Positions 3,888-64,000 of a stretch of 64,000 nt of DNA are shown here, piece after piece (positions within the stretch are counted from its first letter, which is position 1; each line of letters begins with the position of its first letter). The DNA comes from Dyadobacter fanqingshengii (GTDB taxonomy: Bacteria > Bacteroidota > Bacteroidia > Cytophagales > Spirosomataceae), in the NCBI RefSeq assembly GCF_023822005.2, contig NZ_CP098806.1, forward strand, positions 4,464,001 through 4,528,000, in the 5' to 3' direction. The notes under the pieces are model-generated. The model did no database searches. It had not been told where the DNA came from and saw nothing but the letters and a program-made list of their open reading frames with translations. Both the position numbers and the translations under genes were made by a program.

Positions 3888-4763
3888 TCAGATCAGCTCG
3901 GGTGCGGTTTTATACAAATATCTTCTTTTGTATTCCAATGGCGTCATGTCGGTAACCTTTTTGAAATGCCGGTAAAAATTGGAAACATTGTTGAAACCGC
4001 ACTCAAAGCAAATCACCTCCGTCGCTAGTTTATCTTCAATTAAAAACCGGCAAGCCTGGCTAATGCGGATTTCCACAAGAAAGTCGTTGTAGGTTTTCTT
4101 TGTCATCAGCTTAAAATACCGGCAAAAGGAGGTTATACCAAGATTTGCAATGGACGCCACGTCTTGCAATGAAATGTCGTTTCGGTAATTCGATAGTGTG
4201 TAAGCGTAGATTTTATTCAATCGAAGCGTTTCCGAATCATTGGATTTGTAGAATGCATGTGCCGACGCAATGGTTTCCAAATCACTGGCTTCTGCCAGAA
4301 TCTTCAAAATAGAAAGTAATGCAATTAACCGGTCGAGGTTTTGCGCATTCACTGCTGCTTTCATTAATGGAATAATTCCTTCTTTGGCTTTTCCATTGAT
4401 CAGCAGTCCGCGTCTAGCTTTTTCATACAATTTGGGAATTTGATAGGCTTCCGGCAAAAGCAGCAACTCACTTCCCAGGCAATTGGGCAAAAAGTGAATG
4501 ATGATCACTTCCACGGCCGTATTACTCATGCCTTCTTCAACGCGCCACGTATGCGGCAGATTTTCACCCAATAAGATCAACTCCCCATCCGAAAAGTTGC
4601 TGATATTATCACCAATAAACCGCACTCCGGTCCCTTTGATCAGATAATGAAGTTCTAATTCGGGATGGTAATGCCATACTGTGCCGAAGCCGGAGTCCTT
4701 ATCGTGACGGATACTGAAAGACGTCCGGGATGCAATCGGAACCTTGTGAAAATGCGGTTTCAT
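3888..4763 (-). CDS. AraC family transcriptional regulator with cupin sensor domain
   Basis: A 291-residue regulator. The N-terminal cupin-like half shows VWHYHPELELHYLIKGTG and GELILLGENLPHTW. The C-terminal half has two helix-turn-helix segments, ISLQDVASIANLGITSFCRYF and ATEVICFECGFNNVSNFYRHF, which is the AraC/XylS DNA-binding domain. A sugar or small-acid ligand is expected in the cupin. Its neighbours on the same strand are a truncated sigma gene and an aldolase/sodium symporter pair, which are plausible targets; that link is inference. Confidence 0.85.
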   Translation of the reverse strand: MKPHFHKVPIASRTSFSIRHDKDSGFGTVWHYHPELELHYLIKGTGVRFIGDNISNFSDGELILLGENLPHTWRVEEGMSNTAVEVIIIHFLPNCLGSELLLLPEAYQIPKLYEKARRGLLINGKAKEGIIPLMKAAVNAQNLDRLIALLSILKILAEASDLETIASAHAFYKSNDSETLRLNKIYAYTLSNYRNDISLQDVASIANLGITSFCRYFKLMTKKTYNDFLVEIRISQACRFLIEDKLATEVICFECGFNNVSNFYRHFKKVTDMTPLEYKRRYLYKTAPELI

Positions 4764-4919
4764 TTTTAAATATCATTTCGACAACTTTTAATTGCCAACG
4801 TTCCATTTAAAAAGAGAATTACTGAAATATCTATCTACGTTTATCCCAAAAACTTTGAAATAGTTATATGAAATCCAGCAATCGTTTAAGTTTATCAAAA
4901 GTTACTTTTCAGTTGAACC

Positions 4920-5252
4920 TCAAAGGCGTTGACTATCGCTAAATGAATGGATCTTGTTTAAAAACATTTCCTTGGATGCCGGATCTTTGTATCGGTTCAT
5001 CTGCCCAAAAATCTCGCTTTTCAGATTCATGAATAGGTAAGTCTGAAAATTGTCTTCCGTTTCAATGTCAACGCGCTCATCCCAGATTTTAGCAAAAACG
5101 CTCTCCGTAATCGTTTCAGCCTCTTTCTCATCTTTCAAAAGCACCGCGCAGAACTTCACAGCGGGAAAATAAAAGTATGAGCAAAGTTGCGTGAAAGCAG
5201 CCTCATCTCCTTGTTTGATTTGATAAAGAATTTGTTGATTTGGAAAATTCAT
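4920..5252 (-). CDS. Short sigma-70-like (ECF region 2) protein lacking region 4
   Basis: This 110-residue protein resembles region 2 of ECF sigma factors: QIKQGDEAAFTQLCSYFYFP at the start and a core helix with acidic ESVFAKIWDERVDI. A complete ECF sigma has about 170-200 residues with a region 4 HTH, which is absent here; the frame ends in SFSDSQRL. It is either a remnant or a shortened sigma-like protein. It lies 29 bases downstream of the aldolase gene on the same strand and may be read from that operon. Confidence 0.5.
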   Translation of the reverse strand: MNFPNQQILYQIKQGDEAAFTQLCSYFYFPAVKFCAVLLKDEKEAETITESVFAKIWDERVDIETEDNFQTYLFMNLKSEIFGQMNRYKDPASKEMFLNKIHSFSDSQRL

Positions 5253-5281
5253 AGCTTTAATCGTAAGGGTAGAAATGGCTT

Positions 5282-29432: not shown

Positions 29433-29503
29433 TGGCCGATGGTGTAATGGTAACACAGGACATTTTGGTTGTCTTATTCAGGGTTCGAGTCCTTGTCGGC
29501 CAA
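29433..29503 (+). tRNA. tRNA-Gln (anticodon TTG)
   Basis: A complete cloverleaf can be drawn. The acceptor stem TGGCCGA pairs with TCGGCCA, a D arm lies around GGTGTAATGGTAACAC, the anticodon stem-loop has TTTTGGT as its loop (anticodon TTG), and a T arm contains GGTTCGAGTCC. CCA is not encoded. The ordinary chromosome ends here and accessory genes follow, so its 3' end is a candidate integration site. Confidence 0.95.
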
Positions 29504-36099: not shown

Positions 36100-36321
36100 T
36101 ATGTTGAAGGGCTAACATTAAAAGACCAATCAGAAATACTGAATATAAGTATTTTTCAAAAAAGTTGAATAAAAGTAATACTACAAAACATAAGGAACAG
36201 CACAAAAACAATTTATTAAACGGTTGACGTTAGATTCAGTAGTTGATAATACACGCGATCGGCTCGATCAATCACTTTACAACTCGGCCACTATCGCTCA
36301 CTTTCAGCCGCAATCAAATAT

Positions 36322-36481
36322 GATCCGCCCGCAACTCCGCAACTACTAATAGATCCTATTAGGTATTTCCTTATCCATTACAAAGTACATTGCATCATCG
36401 TTGCACTGTTGAAGTATACTAGGAGCAGTCTTAGGCCATATGCCTACTATTATCTGTAGTAATCTTCAACATGGGCCAACC
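36322..36481. repeat. Structured ~160-nt element, unit A (most diverged)
   Basis: 160 nt. It shares with units B-D the blocks GCAACTCC.YAACTACT near the left end, TAGGT..TTCC, TACATT and TCGTTGC in the middle, and CATGGGCC at the right end. The terminal complementarity is weak in this copy (GATCCGCCC against GGGCCAACC). No open reading frame fits. About 147 nt separate it from unit B. Confidence 0.65.
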
Positions 36482-36628
36482 AATAGTTTATTATAACGAA
36501 AGTTTTCATTTCTGCGAAACATGAAAGTGCTTACGAAATAGCTATTCTAGGGCCATCTTGTGTTCAATGAGGAAGTGACCAGCCCGGTAAGGATACAAGG
36601 TGAGCGGAATTTTGAATTGAAAAATAAA

Positions 36629-36786
36629 GGCGGCCCCGCAACTCCATAATTATCGGAAAAGAAAATAGGTCTTTCCTTTTTTTCTCGATGATACATTACC
36701 TCTTCATTGCAATGTTCAAGTAAGCTTAAAAACCTGATAGGTCATCAACCTTGAACGGCGCATAGCAACCCTAAACATAGGCCGCC
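36629..36786. repeat. Structured ~160-nt element, unit B
   Basis: 158 nt. The ends are exact complements: GGCGGCC (36629-36635) and GGCCGCC (36780-36786). Internal blocks: GCAACTCC, AATAGGTCTTTCC, ATACATTACCTCTTCATTGC, TTCAAGTAA and GCGCATAG. It lies 86 nt before unit C. Confidence 0.75.
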
Positions 36787-36872
36787 ATAATCTTTCAACA
36801 ATCCGGAAAGCGAGCGACATTCTAACAGATAAGATGCCCGTTTCAAGAATAGGAAATTGTAGCGAAAAAAAA

Positions 36873-37032
36873 GGCGGCCTGCAGCTCCGTAACTACTTTT
36901 AACTGGAATGGGTCGTTTCCCTCTTTTCCTCCTTAGTACATTATAACATCGCTACTCGGTTTAAGTAAAACCCTAAAGTCAGACAGGTCTTTCTCCTTCT
37001 ACGGCGCATAGTACTCTTGAACTTGGGCCGCC
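36873..37032. repeat. Structured ~160-nt element, unit C
   Basis: 160 nt. The ends GGCGGCC (36873-36879) and GGCCGCC (37026-37032) are exact complements. It shares CTCCGTAACTACTT, TACATTATAACATCG, TTTAAGTAAA and GCGCATAGTACTC with its siblings. It is followed by about 180 nt of unrelated DNA before unit D. Confidence 0.75.
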
Positions 37033-37211
37033 AGTATCTTCTGGCAAGTTACTGAGGCGATTAAATAACGTGCTGGCGGCTACGGGCTCTTCTGTACCGC
37101 CTGGCTTGTAATTAAGTCAAAATTACAGCTGTCTATCAACCTTTTCGGACGAGATGCGAGTTTCATGGGTAATGCCCTGATACTTTAATGCACCTATATT
37201 GTGCAGTACAT

Positions 37212-37375
37212 GGATGGTCGGCTGGCAACTCCGTAACTACTTAAACCTTAAATGGTCTTTCCTTTTGTCGATCTTAGCATATTACATCTTCGTTGCGCTG
37301 CCCAAGTAAACTGCAACGTACCTTAGGTCTTGCCTTGTCGCAAAAATAGTAATCTCGAACATCAGCCGCCCATCC
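37212..37375. repeat. Structured ~160-nt element, unit D, overlapping the transposase 3' end
   Basis: 164 nt. The ends are GGATGGTCGGCTG (37212-37224) and CAGCCGCCCATCC (37363-37375), complementary at 12 of 13 positions. Internal blocks GCAACTCCGTAACTACTT, TGGTCTTTCC, ATTACATCTTCGTTGC and CAAGTAAAC match the other units. Its right end overlaps the last codons and stop of the IS110 transposase. Relative to B and C, a C-G pair in the terminal stem has become T-A, a compensatory change. Confidence 0.75.
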
Positions 37376-38360
37376 TTATTGATTTGTAAACGCTGTTATT
37401 TTTAACGCATGCAAAAATGCGATGGACCAATTTATTGCGCATTGCATTGATAATCGCCATGTTGTTTTTCCCCTCTTTTTGCTTTCGTAGGTAGTAATTG
37501 CCGAGTTCGCTCCCCTTCTGACGGATACATCCCATTGCTGCCAAATGCAGGCTTGCTTTAATCTCTTTGTTTGCAATGTGGGAAACTTTAGATCTACCTT
37601 TCAAACTGGTGCCTGATGTCCAGTCAAATGGAGCAATTCCGCAGTAACTAGCAAACTTCTTTGCCGAACTTATATTTTTAAACTCGTTGGTATGGATAAT
37701 AATCTGAGTAGCGATGACCTTACCGATACATGGCACTGATGTTATAATCAATACAAGTGAGCTGAGCCTTTCATCACCCTCTATAATCAATTGCATCTCA
37801 CGGCGAAGTGCGTCAAGATCTTCGTTTATAGCTAACAAACTCTTCTCAAAAAGCTTATCAAATGCATATCTTTCGTCTGCTCGCAGGAAATGCGACCGAA
37901 CTTTACCGTCGTTTGTCAGCATCGGTCGAATTTTAACCAATCTCTTCCTGAGTGCTTCGAGCAGTTGCAGCCGTTGGATGCACTCCCTAGGAGGCTCCCA
38001 AAACTTCAATGCAGAATAGTGCTTTTTGGCGTACTCAGCAATCCTTACGGCATCCAACTTATCGCTTTTCCCCCTGGTGATGCCCAGCGAGCGCTTAATC
38101 TGCAGAGGCGATTCCAAACACAATGGGATGTTTTTCAGCGACCTAATGAGGAAGTTACAGTACATTCCCATGTTCTCAGCACAAAACACAATTTCATGCT
38201 TTTTGAAGCGATATTCCTCCTTAAGCATCTTAAGGCATGTGCGAACTGAATCCTCCGTGTTATCAATTTTTAATGAACGTATTGGATGGTTTGACGTCAG
38301 GATCGCCAAATCCATAGTAAGTTTTGAAATGTCTACACCGACAAAAATTTTAGGCTCCAT
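37362..38360 (-). mobile_element. IS110-family transposase (DEDD recombinase)
   Basis: A 332-residue transposase. The N-terminal RuvC-like domain has the four acidic residues of the IS110 DEDD set: D10 in FVGVDISK, E62 in FCAENMG, and D100 and D103 in KSDKLDAVRIAEYA. The C-terminal Transposase_20 domain has SVPCIGKVIATQII, FASYCGIAPFDWTSG with the candidate catalytic Ser (about 249), and GRSKVSHIANKEIKASL. IS110 enzymes are guided by a bridge RNA encoded in the element's non-coding end. About 140 nt precede the start codon and structured repeats follow the stop; the element ends were not determined. Confidence 0.9.
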
Positions 38361-38500: not shown

Positions 38501-38719
38501 TTACTTGCACGCTTCGAGCCATTCCTTGAATTCGATTAATCTGAGTCGGCAGGAATTGACTGATTTATGACAGGGATTATTATTCAAAATGTAAAGATCC
38601 GCTTCAACAAAAGCCTTTGGGTCAACAATCGTACTAAACTTGTTGGCTTTGACGGGACCAGTTGGCGTCTCGAAATCCTTGAAATATGCTTCCAATTCCT
38701 CGATACTGAAGATCTTCAT
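38501..38719 (-). CDS. DUF6965-like small protein
   Basis: A 72-residue protein, IEELEAYFKDFETPTGPVKAN..., followed by a helical half ending RLRLIEFKEWLEACK. The pattern (F....LP.GP..... T.I.D...FV..HL..L) fits the DUF6965 family of Bacteroidota small proteins as I recall it. The function is unknown. The 140 nt to the transposase hold no gene. Confidence 0.5.
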   Translation of the reverse strand: MKIFSIEELEAYFKDFETPTGPVKANKFSTIVDPKAFVEADLYILNNNPCHKSVNSCRLRLIEFKEWLEACK

Positions 38720-38798
38720 TTACAGTTATTTAAATATTTGGTTGAGTTCAATGCATGGCACAGTTGTTGTGATAACACTGGGCCATTCTCATAGTTAT

Positions 38799-39092
38799 AT
38801 GCGCGATGAATTCCACTTCACCCAACAACAGTTGGAGCTCGGCCTTAAGGCCAATCAGCGGGCTGCATTTGAGTATTTCTATGACCTTCACTCACCTGCA
38901 TTGTATGGAATCATCTGTAAAATTGTCCCGGACCGAGAAAAAGCGTCCGAAATTTTACAGGAGGCATTTATTGAGTTCTGGCAAAAGATACGCTTGTATG
39001 ATGCCAAGAGTGGGACGATATTTAGGTGGGCGCTTCACATTGCCAGACGGATAGCGATGGAGAGGGCTAAGGATAAATTGCCCGTTACATAA
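38799..39092 (+). CDS. Truncated ECF sigma factor (region 2 only)
   Basis: About 97 residues from the ATG at 38799: LELGLKANQRAAFEYFYDLH, then EILQEAFIEFWQKIRLYDAK and IFRWALHIARRIAMERAK. These are regions 2.1-2.4 of an ECF sigma factor. The frame ends at KDKLPVT just where the linker to region 4 should begin, and I see no region 4 helix-turn-helix in any frame downstream. It is probably a remnant cut by rearrangement near the IS110 element. It could still bind core polymerase or -10 DNA. Confidence 0.6.
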   Translation: MRDEFHFTQQQLELGLKANQRAAFEYFYDLHSPALYGIICKIVPDREKASEILQEAFIEFWQKIRLYDAKSGTIFRWALHIARRIAMERAKDKLPVT

Positions 39093-63297: not shown

Positions 63298-64000
63298 CTA
63301 GACTGCAATCTGAAGCGCACTTCGATTGAAATGCTCGTGGTCTCCCATTCTAATCGCCGTTTCCTCACCAGTAATTTTGATATACTTCATAAACGAGGTT
63401 TCCGTTTTATGGCCTGTGATTCTCATTATATCAATGGTCGATAAACCCGCCAGGTATGCATTTGTAGCGAATGATCGCCTCGCAGTATGAGTTGAAATCA
63501 ACTTAGATTTTTCTAGAAATTTAGCGATTCGCTGGCCCCCTTTTGTTATTGAAGTTTCGACTTTATGGTTTAATTCAGCTTTAACAGCAAGTTCTTTAAG
63601 ATATTCATTCATCTTTTGATTACTAATAACACCTGGAATAGAGGGGTGATATTTTTGTAGAATTGCCTTAACCTGAAGATTAATGGGTATGTAAATCTTA
63701 GATTGGGTCTTTTGAGTGGTCACAATCAGTCTTTTACCGTCTTCACTTATGTTTTCAATTTTTAGTTGTGTAAAATCTGAATATCGTAATCCAGTATAAC
63801 ACCCAATTAGGAATAGATCTCGAACTTTGTCAAGCTTTTTGTTATCCGATAAATCCAGTAAATACAGCTTATCCAATTCTGCATTGCTTAAATATATTGC
63901 GCCTGTTTCTTCCTTAGGCTTGATGAATTCGTCACTTTCATAATCCCGGCTGGTATGTAAACCCTCTGTATGCGCCGCTCTCATCCAAGCTTTAATATGT
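63298..64000 (-). CDS. Tyrosine recombinase/phage-type integrase, C-terminal part (cut by window edge)
   Basis: About 234 residues of a tyrosine recombinase. Catalytic residues are visible: Arg in GCYTGLRYSDF, Lys in TTQKTQSKIYIP, HTARR (His and Arg), the last His in MRITGHKTE, and the Tyr nucleophile in SFMKYIK. A full protein would have about 400 residues, so the arm-binding and SAM-like N-terminal domains lie beyond the right edge. It is the integrase of the mobile module at 60.8-64 kb and possibly of the whole accessory region. Confidence 0.9.
   Translation of the reverse strand, partial: HIKAWMRAAHTEGLHTSRDYESDEFIKPKEETGAIYLSNAELDKLYLLDLSDNKKLDKVRDLFLIGCYTGLRYSDFTQLKIENISEDGKRLIVTTQKTQSKIYIPINLQVKAILQKYHPSIPGVISNQKMNEYLKELAVKAELNHKVETSITKGGQRIAKFLEKSKLISTHTARRSFATNAYLAGLSTIDIMRITGHKTETSFMKYIKITGEETAIRMGDHEHFNRSALQIAV

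Follow-up and report, generated by a model that had tools for sequence, protein, structure and literature searches.

A candidate RNA-guided IS110-type recombinase with four bridge-RNA-like units in Dyadobacter fanqingshengii and related guides matching oriT of mobilizable islands

The recombinase and its downstream RNA units

The genome of the soil bacterium Dyadobacter fanqingshengii (6.27 Mb, two contigs) encodes, within the window (the whole 64,000-nucleotide stretch analysed here), an IS110-type recombinase (tnp) that is followed on its 3' side and on the same strand by four candidate bridge-RNA units in the order D-C-B-A, separated by successive gaps of -10, 181, 83, and 146 nt. The features, in window coordinates, were:

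37362..38360, minus: intact IS110-type DEDD recombinase of 332 aa (Pfam domains PF01548 and PF02371; phmmer matches to IS621 and ISCro4)
37215..37371, minus: predicted bridge-RNA unit D, core AC, overlapping the tnp stop (covariance model, 156.9 bits)
37337..37345, minus: unit D hairpin 1, left guide and core (oriT repeat-arm side)
37316..37324, minus: unit D hairpin 1, right guide and core (pairs with the opposite strand, oriT right half)
37265..37273, minus: unit D hairpin 2, left guide
37245..37253, minus: unit D hairpin 2, right guide and core
36871..37033, minus: predicted bridge-RNA unit C, right-strand core AA in both loops (138.2 bits)
36999-37007, 36976-36984, 36924-36932, 36901-36909, minus: unit C guides
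36628..36787, minus: predicted bridge-RNA unit B, right-strand core AA in both loops (150.7 bits)
36753-36761, 36730-36738, 36679-36687, 36658-36666, minus: unit B guides
36321..36481, minus: predicted bridge-RNA unit A, hairpin-1 core AG (144.4 bits)
36447-36455, 36424-36432, 36373-36381, 36352-36360, minus: unit A guides
29433-29503: tRNA
63298-63984: tyrosine integrase

The description of the gene in the initial annotation as an intact DEDD IS110 transposase was borne out by Pfam and phmmer, which detected both the DEDD RuvC-like domain and the Tnp domain with its catalytic serine. Residues D10, E62, D100, and D103 and the SGTS motif at 249-252 matched the IS621 catalytic positions in phmmer, and alignments with the ISCro4 (9t56) and IS621 (8wt6) transposases spanned most of the protein, catalytic positions included. 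Plasmid-borne relatives numbered 562 records, each below 60% identity, and PADLOC-DB held no entry for the recombinase. The surrounding region (29433-63984) is probably an integrated island, with the tRNA at one end, the tyrosine integrase at the other, and AlbA_2, RelA/SpoT-like, DnaE-like, and SRAP genes inside. Beside the cassette lies a sigma-70 region-2 ORF (38640-39092) without the remainder of the sigma factor, and DNA 72-74% identical to it was present in two other genomes (G006 and G008). Several other cassettes have integrases, TraG, or relaxase genes nearby or on the same contig, and by gene content the carriers of the system look like mobile elements (integrative elements or plasmids).

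All four units proposed earlier were recovered on the minus strand by a covariance model built from seven sequences, A-D being four of them, and by nhmmer with unit A alone, which is independent of that model (E-values of 2.7e-10 for D, 1.6e-7 for C, and 3.9e-6 for B); the overlap of unit D with the tnp stop amounted to 10 nt. The predicted fold of the ~160-nt unit is a closing stem around two hairpins, each consisting of a stem, an internal loop with two guide-sized strands of ~12-14 nt, and a short apical AGG..CCU stem. Covariation, on which the earlier reading depended, was found: in an alignment of 20 matches, two of them antisense fragments and all fitted to the covariance model, 94.2% of 713 cells were paired compared to 78.9% after shuffling and at most 49.1% in slid controls, and 31 of 39 pairs showed double-sided changes. 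An unfitted alignment of 16 sequences gave compensatory changes in 18 of 25 predicted pairs, and the changing terminal pair noted previously was real (C-G to U-A in unit B). For unit C taken alone, neither strand folded better than its shuffles (z -0.18 and -0.96), so that the structural evidence is comparative. The RNA strand is predicted to be minus, the strand of tnp, because the pair changes are G-U on minus and A-C on plus. Searches against known RNA families returned one tRNA alone at gathering score, weaker matches being at chance level. These comparisons confirmed A-D as one family of predicted structured RNAs beside an IS110-type recombinase. The suggestion that they might be footprints of repeated insertions gained no support: the gaps between units measure 83-181 nt, A-D retain 35-39 of 39 pairs, and searches around the cassettes turned up no element ends.

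Under strict filters, the model (R1) identified 21 units; of 99 genomes, 11 had units, and all of these belong to Dyadobacter. Locus scans brought to light a further unit in G027 as well as a weak one in G036. The host genome had just five, A-D and one on contig C2 that is also near another IS110 transposase, and the possibility of an interspersed repeat unlinked to IS110 could therefore be ruled out. Related Dyadobacter genomes carry one to three units beside related recombinases. At 14 loci with both tnp and a unit, the first unit lies -37 to +5 nt from the stop in 11 and 123, 177, and 5423 nt from it in the remaining three. Four units were present in the window, three in G036, two in Dyadobacter sp. 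CY326 (G015), which holds the counterpart of unit D, and two on contig C22 of G042, both with hairpin-1 guides almost identical to those of unit B; the other 10 loci have a single unit. Each unit-bearing genome has at most two tnp matches, diverged from each other, and near-identical copies within one genome were absent from the clade.

Some loci were visibly disrupted. In G005 (L086, 4362-10975) an IS66 gene cuts tnp and the unit now lies 5.4 kb away, and this unit nevertheless has guides matching an oriT within the same genome. Locus L087 (5382-5626) of G014 is a deletion relic of the G036 array locus without tnp, in which the tnp start runs into the central part of the third unit, the two overlapping by TA at the joint. 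G024 has an isolated weak unit (L091, 5249-5367; 33.7 bits) missing most of hairpin 1 and no tnp match at E <= 1e-30, and the weakest unit was G036 unit 2 (25.7 bits). In several distant Bacteroidota relatives of the recombinase (35-41% identity), the RNA seemed by eye to lie upstream, as in ordinary IS110, which makes the downstream arrays look derived. Two elements in G035:C1 (L097/L098), 98.8% identical and inserted in REP-like palindromes, serve as a clean positive control for ordinary IS110: their upstream bridge RNA, ends, core TC, and guides for both the REP-like target and their own ends were readable by eye.

Shared core of the guide loops and hairpin-1 matches to oriT

A bridge RNA needs a core common to its two loops because both DNA sites must have the same core. 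The right-hand strands of both loops were therefore compared at all 143 registers in 17 units, after seven of 24 rows (L087, L091, L081, L088:5212, L083:5690, L085, and one antisense row) had been dropped as relic, weak, near-duplicate, or fragment. The best register was identical in both hairpins, at nucleotides 8-9 past the apical stem, where 12 of 17 units had an equal dinucleotide in both loops compared to 5.4 expected (0 of 500 permutations; kinship not controlled). The excess of 6.6 compares to 3.0 at the next best register. The IS621 register copied by eye gave no common core, and positions 8-9 were chosen by the data. Within the array, the cores are AC in D, AA in B and C, and AG in hairpin 1 of A, hairpin 2 of which fits AG only after a one-letter shift. 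Left-hand guide strands match the shared core less often than right-hand ones, and left/right complementarity within single hairpins was not significant (p 0.07 to 0.57). The predicted site of each hairpin was taken as seven left letters, the core, and the right half, tested across 14 nt.

The hairpin-1 site of unit D, common to its CY326 counterpart, occurs exactly once in each of the two genomes and in orthologous places; in the host, a NikA/MobC-like gene lies ~85 nt downstream of the site, with a MobA/VirD2-type relaxase gene behind it. The site of the G005 unit likewise lies directly before a mobA-relaxase pair in G005. Relaxase matches were present in at least 45 of 48 genus genomes, and among the matches listed 144 loci (278 kb) were scanned with the 18 distinct hairpin-1 sites, one of which comes from a relic. 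Three of the 18 matched oriT exactly (14/14), with 20 matches for the unit D/G015 type, 16 for the G005/G036 unit 2 type, and five for G036 unit 1, or 41 in total, compared to 0 exact matches in 20 shuffles per site; one-mismatch matches numbered 14 compared to a shuffled mean of 1.2. All 41 exact matches lie upstream of a mobA-like gene at type-specific distances, namely 85-103 nt (20/20), 15-17 nt (15/16, the other at 219), and 5-6 nt (5/5), respectively. As many of the relaxase loci are related islands, the independent count is three guides, for which ~0.04 were expected by an arithmetic estimate. In the matched oriTs, the left half is an inverted-repeat arm followed by the core, and the right half extends towards the presumed nic, whose position we take by analogy. 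On this sequence identity, unit D and units in G015, G005, and G036 have predicted hairpin-1 sites identical to the oriT of mobilizable islands.

Two further one-mismatch matches were not counted, that of L079 being downstream of the relaxase and that of G036 unit 3 in a G015 region not being before mobA. Unit A had no site among the 144 relaxase loci, and unit B had none at up to one mismatch in the host or G042. Genus-wide, one-mismatch matches numbered 18 for unit B (~9 in backward controls) and 10 for unit C (~13), none near a relaxosome gene. Unit B also gave six exact 15-mers in 390 order-level genomes (control 4) without an adjacent relaxosome gene, and four Spirosoma/Fibrella plasmid regions yielded no match below two mismatches.

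Recombinant islands and hairpin 2

A check of oriTs for interruption at the predicted core identified an island in G032 (L279), the other flagged interrupted anchors being the same palindrome read from the opposite side, and a search with the L279 integrase found a second in G002 (L202). In both, the left half and core of oriT are joined directly to the antisense strand of a tyrosine integrase gene that is broken at two different points: the break follows Y-A-K in L279 and V-S-K in L202. In the intact relative L145, the integrase (3982-5253) is separated by several kb of other genes from oriT (9182), with mobA and then the relaxase following; given this order and the same orientation of the sites, L279 and L202 are the products expected from excision between the sites.

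The oriT guide of the two recombinants is carried in hairpin 1 by two of the 21 units, those of G005 and G036 unit 2, and hairpin 2 of the same two units gave the best fits to the integrase sites, whose left halves were taken from the nearest intact integrases. The L279 site was best fitted by the G005 unit (11/14; next of the 21 units 8) and the L202 site by G036 unit 2 (12/14; next 7). The joint fit of 23/28 was reached in 0 of 200,000 shuffles and the 171 other unit pairs scored at most 15, in a test made after the junctions had been seen. The integrase sites have AT or TT at the positions where oriT has AC. A scan of integrases returned 13/14 for hairpin 2 of G036 unit 2 (at most 12 in 12 shuffles) and a marginal 12 compared to 11 for G036 unit 3, while the remaining units, D included, fitted integrases at shuffle level. 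Elsewhere, hairpin-2 sites were at shuffle level: 0 exact and four one-mismatch matches in the oriT loci (5.25 shuffled), none found in 20-144 kb of carrier DNA, and seven exact matches in 1.49 Mb (8.2 shuffled). Considering both sites together, three of 18 hairpin-1 sites match oriT and two natural junctions match hairpin 2, the rest being unmatched. By eye, the hairpin-2 sites of L079 (G042) and L085 (G011) differ by changes that are silent if read as N-P-S-P, a hint that the second site is protein-coding.

In the genomes with L279 and L202, neither a unit nor a recombinase match at E <= 1e-30 was found, and intact D-type oriTs coexist with the system in the host and in CY326. A narrow motif search of 19 kb around the D-type oriTs found no integrase 3' end, with an N-terminal fragment in the host and none in CY326. 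In the host island with the D-type oriT (L143, 10712-11692), a gene near oriT has been fused to an integrase N-terminus; this is a third rearrangement of the integrase/oriT region, but one away from the core. The oriT islands L145 (G005) and L146 (G046) have defence-like genes coding for an anti-phage-like phosphoesterase and a Drt2-type reverse transcriptase.

Proposed function and relation to known systems

The locus is best explained, with a probability of roughly 70%, as an IS110-derived recombinase that draws on a bank of four bridge RNAs with separate guides and excises the segment between integrase and oriT, thereby crippling islands. The reading in the initial annotation of an array of bridge-RNA-like variants serving one enzyme gained support from the covariation, the shared core, the genus-wide linkage to IS110, and the guide-site matches. 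As unit D overlaps the tnp stop, tnp transcription would run into the array and be processed into single RNAs. The RNA and recombinase would then bind the oriT of an island via hairpin 1 and a second site via hairpin 2, this being the integrase gene in the two decoded cases. Because the two sites are oriented alike, exchange of strands at the core would excise the intervening cargo together with the integrase end and the oriT right half, leaving an immobilised island whose oriT is halved and whose integrase is shortened. Several units per enzyme would put several island types within reach. With carriers that themselves resemble mobile elements, the system would probably serve to compete against other such elements or to protect the host. 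That the whole constitutes RNA-guided immunity or rivalry, in which an IS110 recombinase that does not move itself uses bispecific bridge RNAs, each addressing the oriT and integrase of one island type, to lock that island, is about an even bet, the hostile purpose of the excision being inferred.

The main rival to a hostile purpose is cargo exchange, in which the recombinase would replace one cargo by another between integrase and oriT, the recombinants being intermediates without cargo. L145 indeed has several kb of genes between the two, one anti-phage-like, and these are missing from the recombinants. Since the recombinants have also lost the oriT right half and the integrase end, they are damaged, and with neither a reciprocal circle nor re-inserted cargo seen, we consider exchange rather unlikely. 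Somewhat less probable still is a random or relaxase-driven deletion that made L279 and L202 independently of the RNAs, leaving only the oriT guides as real. Relaxases can join DNA at nic, the recombinant genomes gave no match to the enzyme at E <= 1e-30, and a one-letter junction overlap is possible; against this, both breaks fall at the guide-predicted core, ~6 nt before the nic as presumed by analogy, and the integrase sides match the two right units. If the locus were an ordinary insertion sequence of IS110 type whose bridge RNA had been duplicated, with hairpin 1 addressing an oriT target and hairpin 2 its own ends, this would account for an enzyme and RNA of IS110 kind, and oriT is a plausible insertion niche. 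This interpretation appears improbable as no guide half lies in the expected place at the cassette ends (register 8-9), 20-144 kb of carrier DNA yielded no hairpin-2 site, near-identical copies per genome are missing from the clade, and hairpin 2 in the two recombinants fits the integrase gene and not element ends. Functionless remnants or chance repeats, of which the relics in G014 and G024 are reminiscent, are very improbable given the pairs kept in A-D, the covariation, the shared core, and three distinct guides matching oriT exactly.

The components of the proposed excision system are those of IS110 bridge-RNA systems. Compared to IS621, as presented in parts of Durrant (2024; PMC11208160) and Hiraizumi (2024; PMC11208158), it shares the DEDD catalytic residues, two guide loops, shared core, and 14-nt sites, but has several RNAs per enzyme downstream of tnp with a different loop order, and its decoded sites are the oriT and integrase genes of other islands and not its own ends. 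With IS1111/seekRNA, as outlined in sections of Siddiquee (2024; PMC11187229), it has in common an RNA downstream of tnp, and some IS1111 members insert into sites of other mobile elements (attC) according to a portion of PMC11208160; it differs in its ~160-nt units, of which there are as many as four and whose guides vary in both loops, and no cassette insertion was seen. The system is unlike IS110/IS1111 insertion sequences in three traits, namely own-end guides, a single RNA (two to four units were present in 4 of 14 loci), and near-identical copies at several places, the last being a usual though not strict trait. Piv/MooV invertases, as treated in excerpts of PMC11187229 and PMC11208160, are likewise IS110-related recombinases that rearrange DNA without moving themselves. 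Their target differs from the island oriT and integrase addressed here. To our knowledge, guide arrays are not known for Piv. TIGR-Tas resembles the locus in having guide RNAs arranged in tandem and an RNA-binding domain of Nop type that is related to the one in IS110, as set out in part of PMC12045711. Membership in TIGR-Tas was rejected because the units are ~160 nt and the full IS110 transposase domains are present, in contrast to the short tigRNAs and nuclease or none of that system in the same text, which describes IS110 bridge RNA as a single two-stem unit, unlike this locus. In the portions of the literature searched, no description was found of bridge-RNA arrays, oriT-directed bridge RNAs, or IS110 at oriT; 'multiple bridge' was absent from the text covered of Durrant (PMC11208160) and 'tandem' from that of the seekRNA paper (PMC11187229).

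Bridge RNAs are otherwise described as single and moving their own element, whereas here one enzyme would be served by several natural RNAs with differing guides and cores, forming a structural parallel to TIGR arrays. The decoded guides aim at other elements, which would represent natural multiplexing and natural reprogramming of both loops, and the predicted sites and recombinant junctions make the system directly testable. It may be a programmable weapon against mobile islands and, if the anti-mobility role is true, the whole system would be of a new kind.
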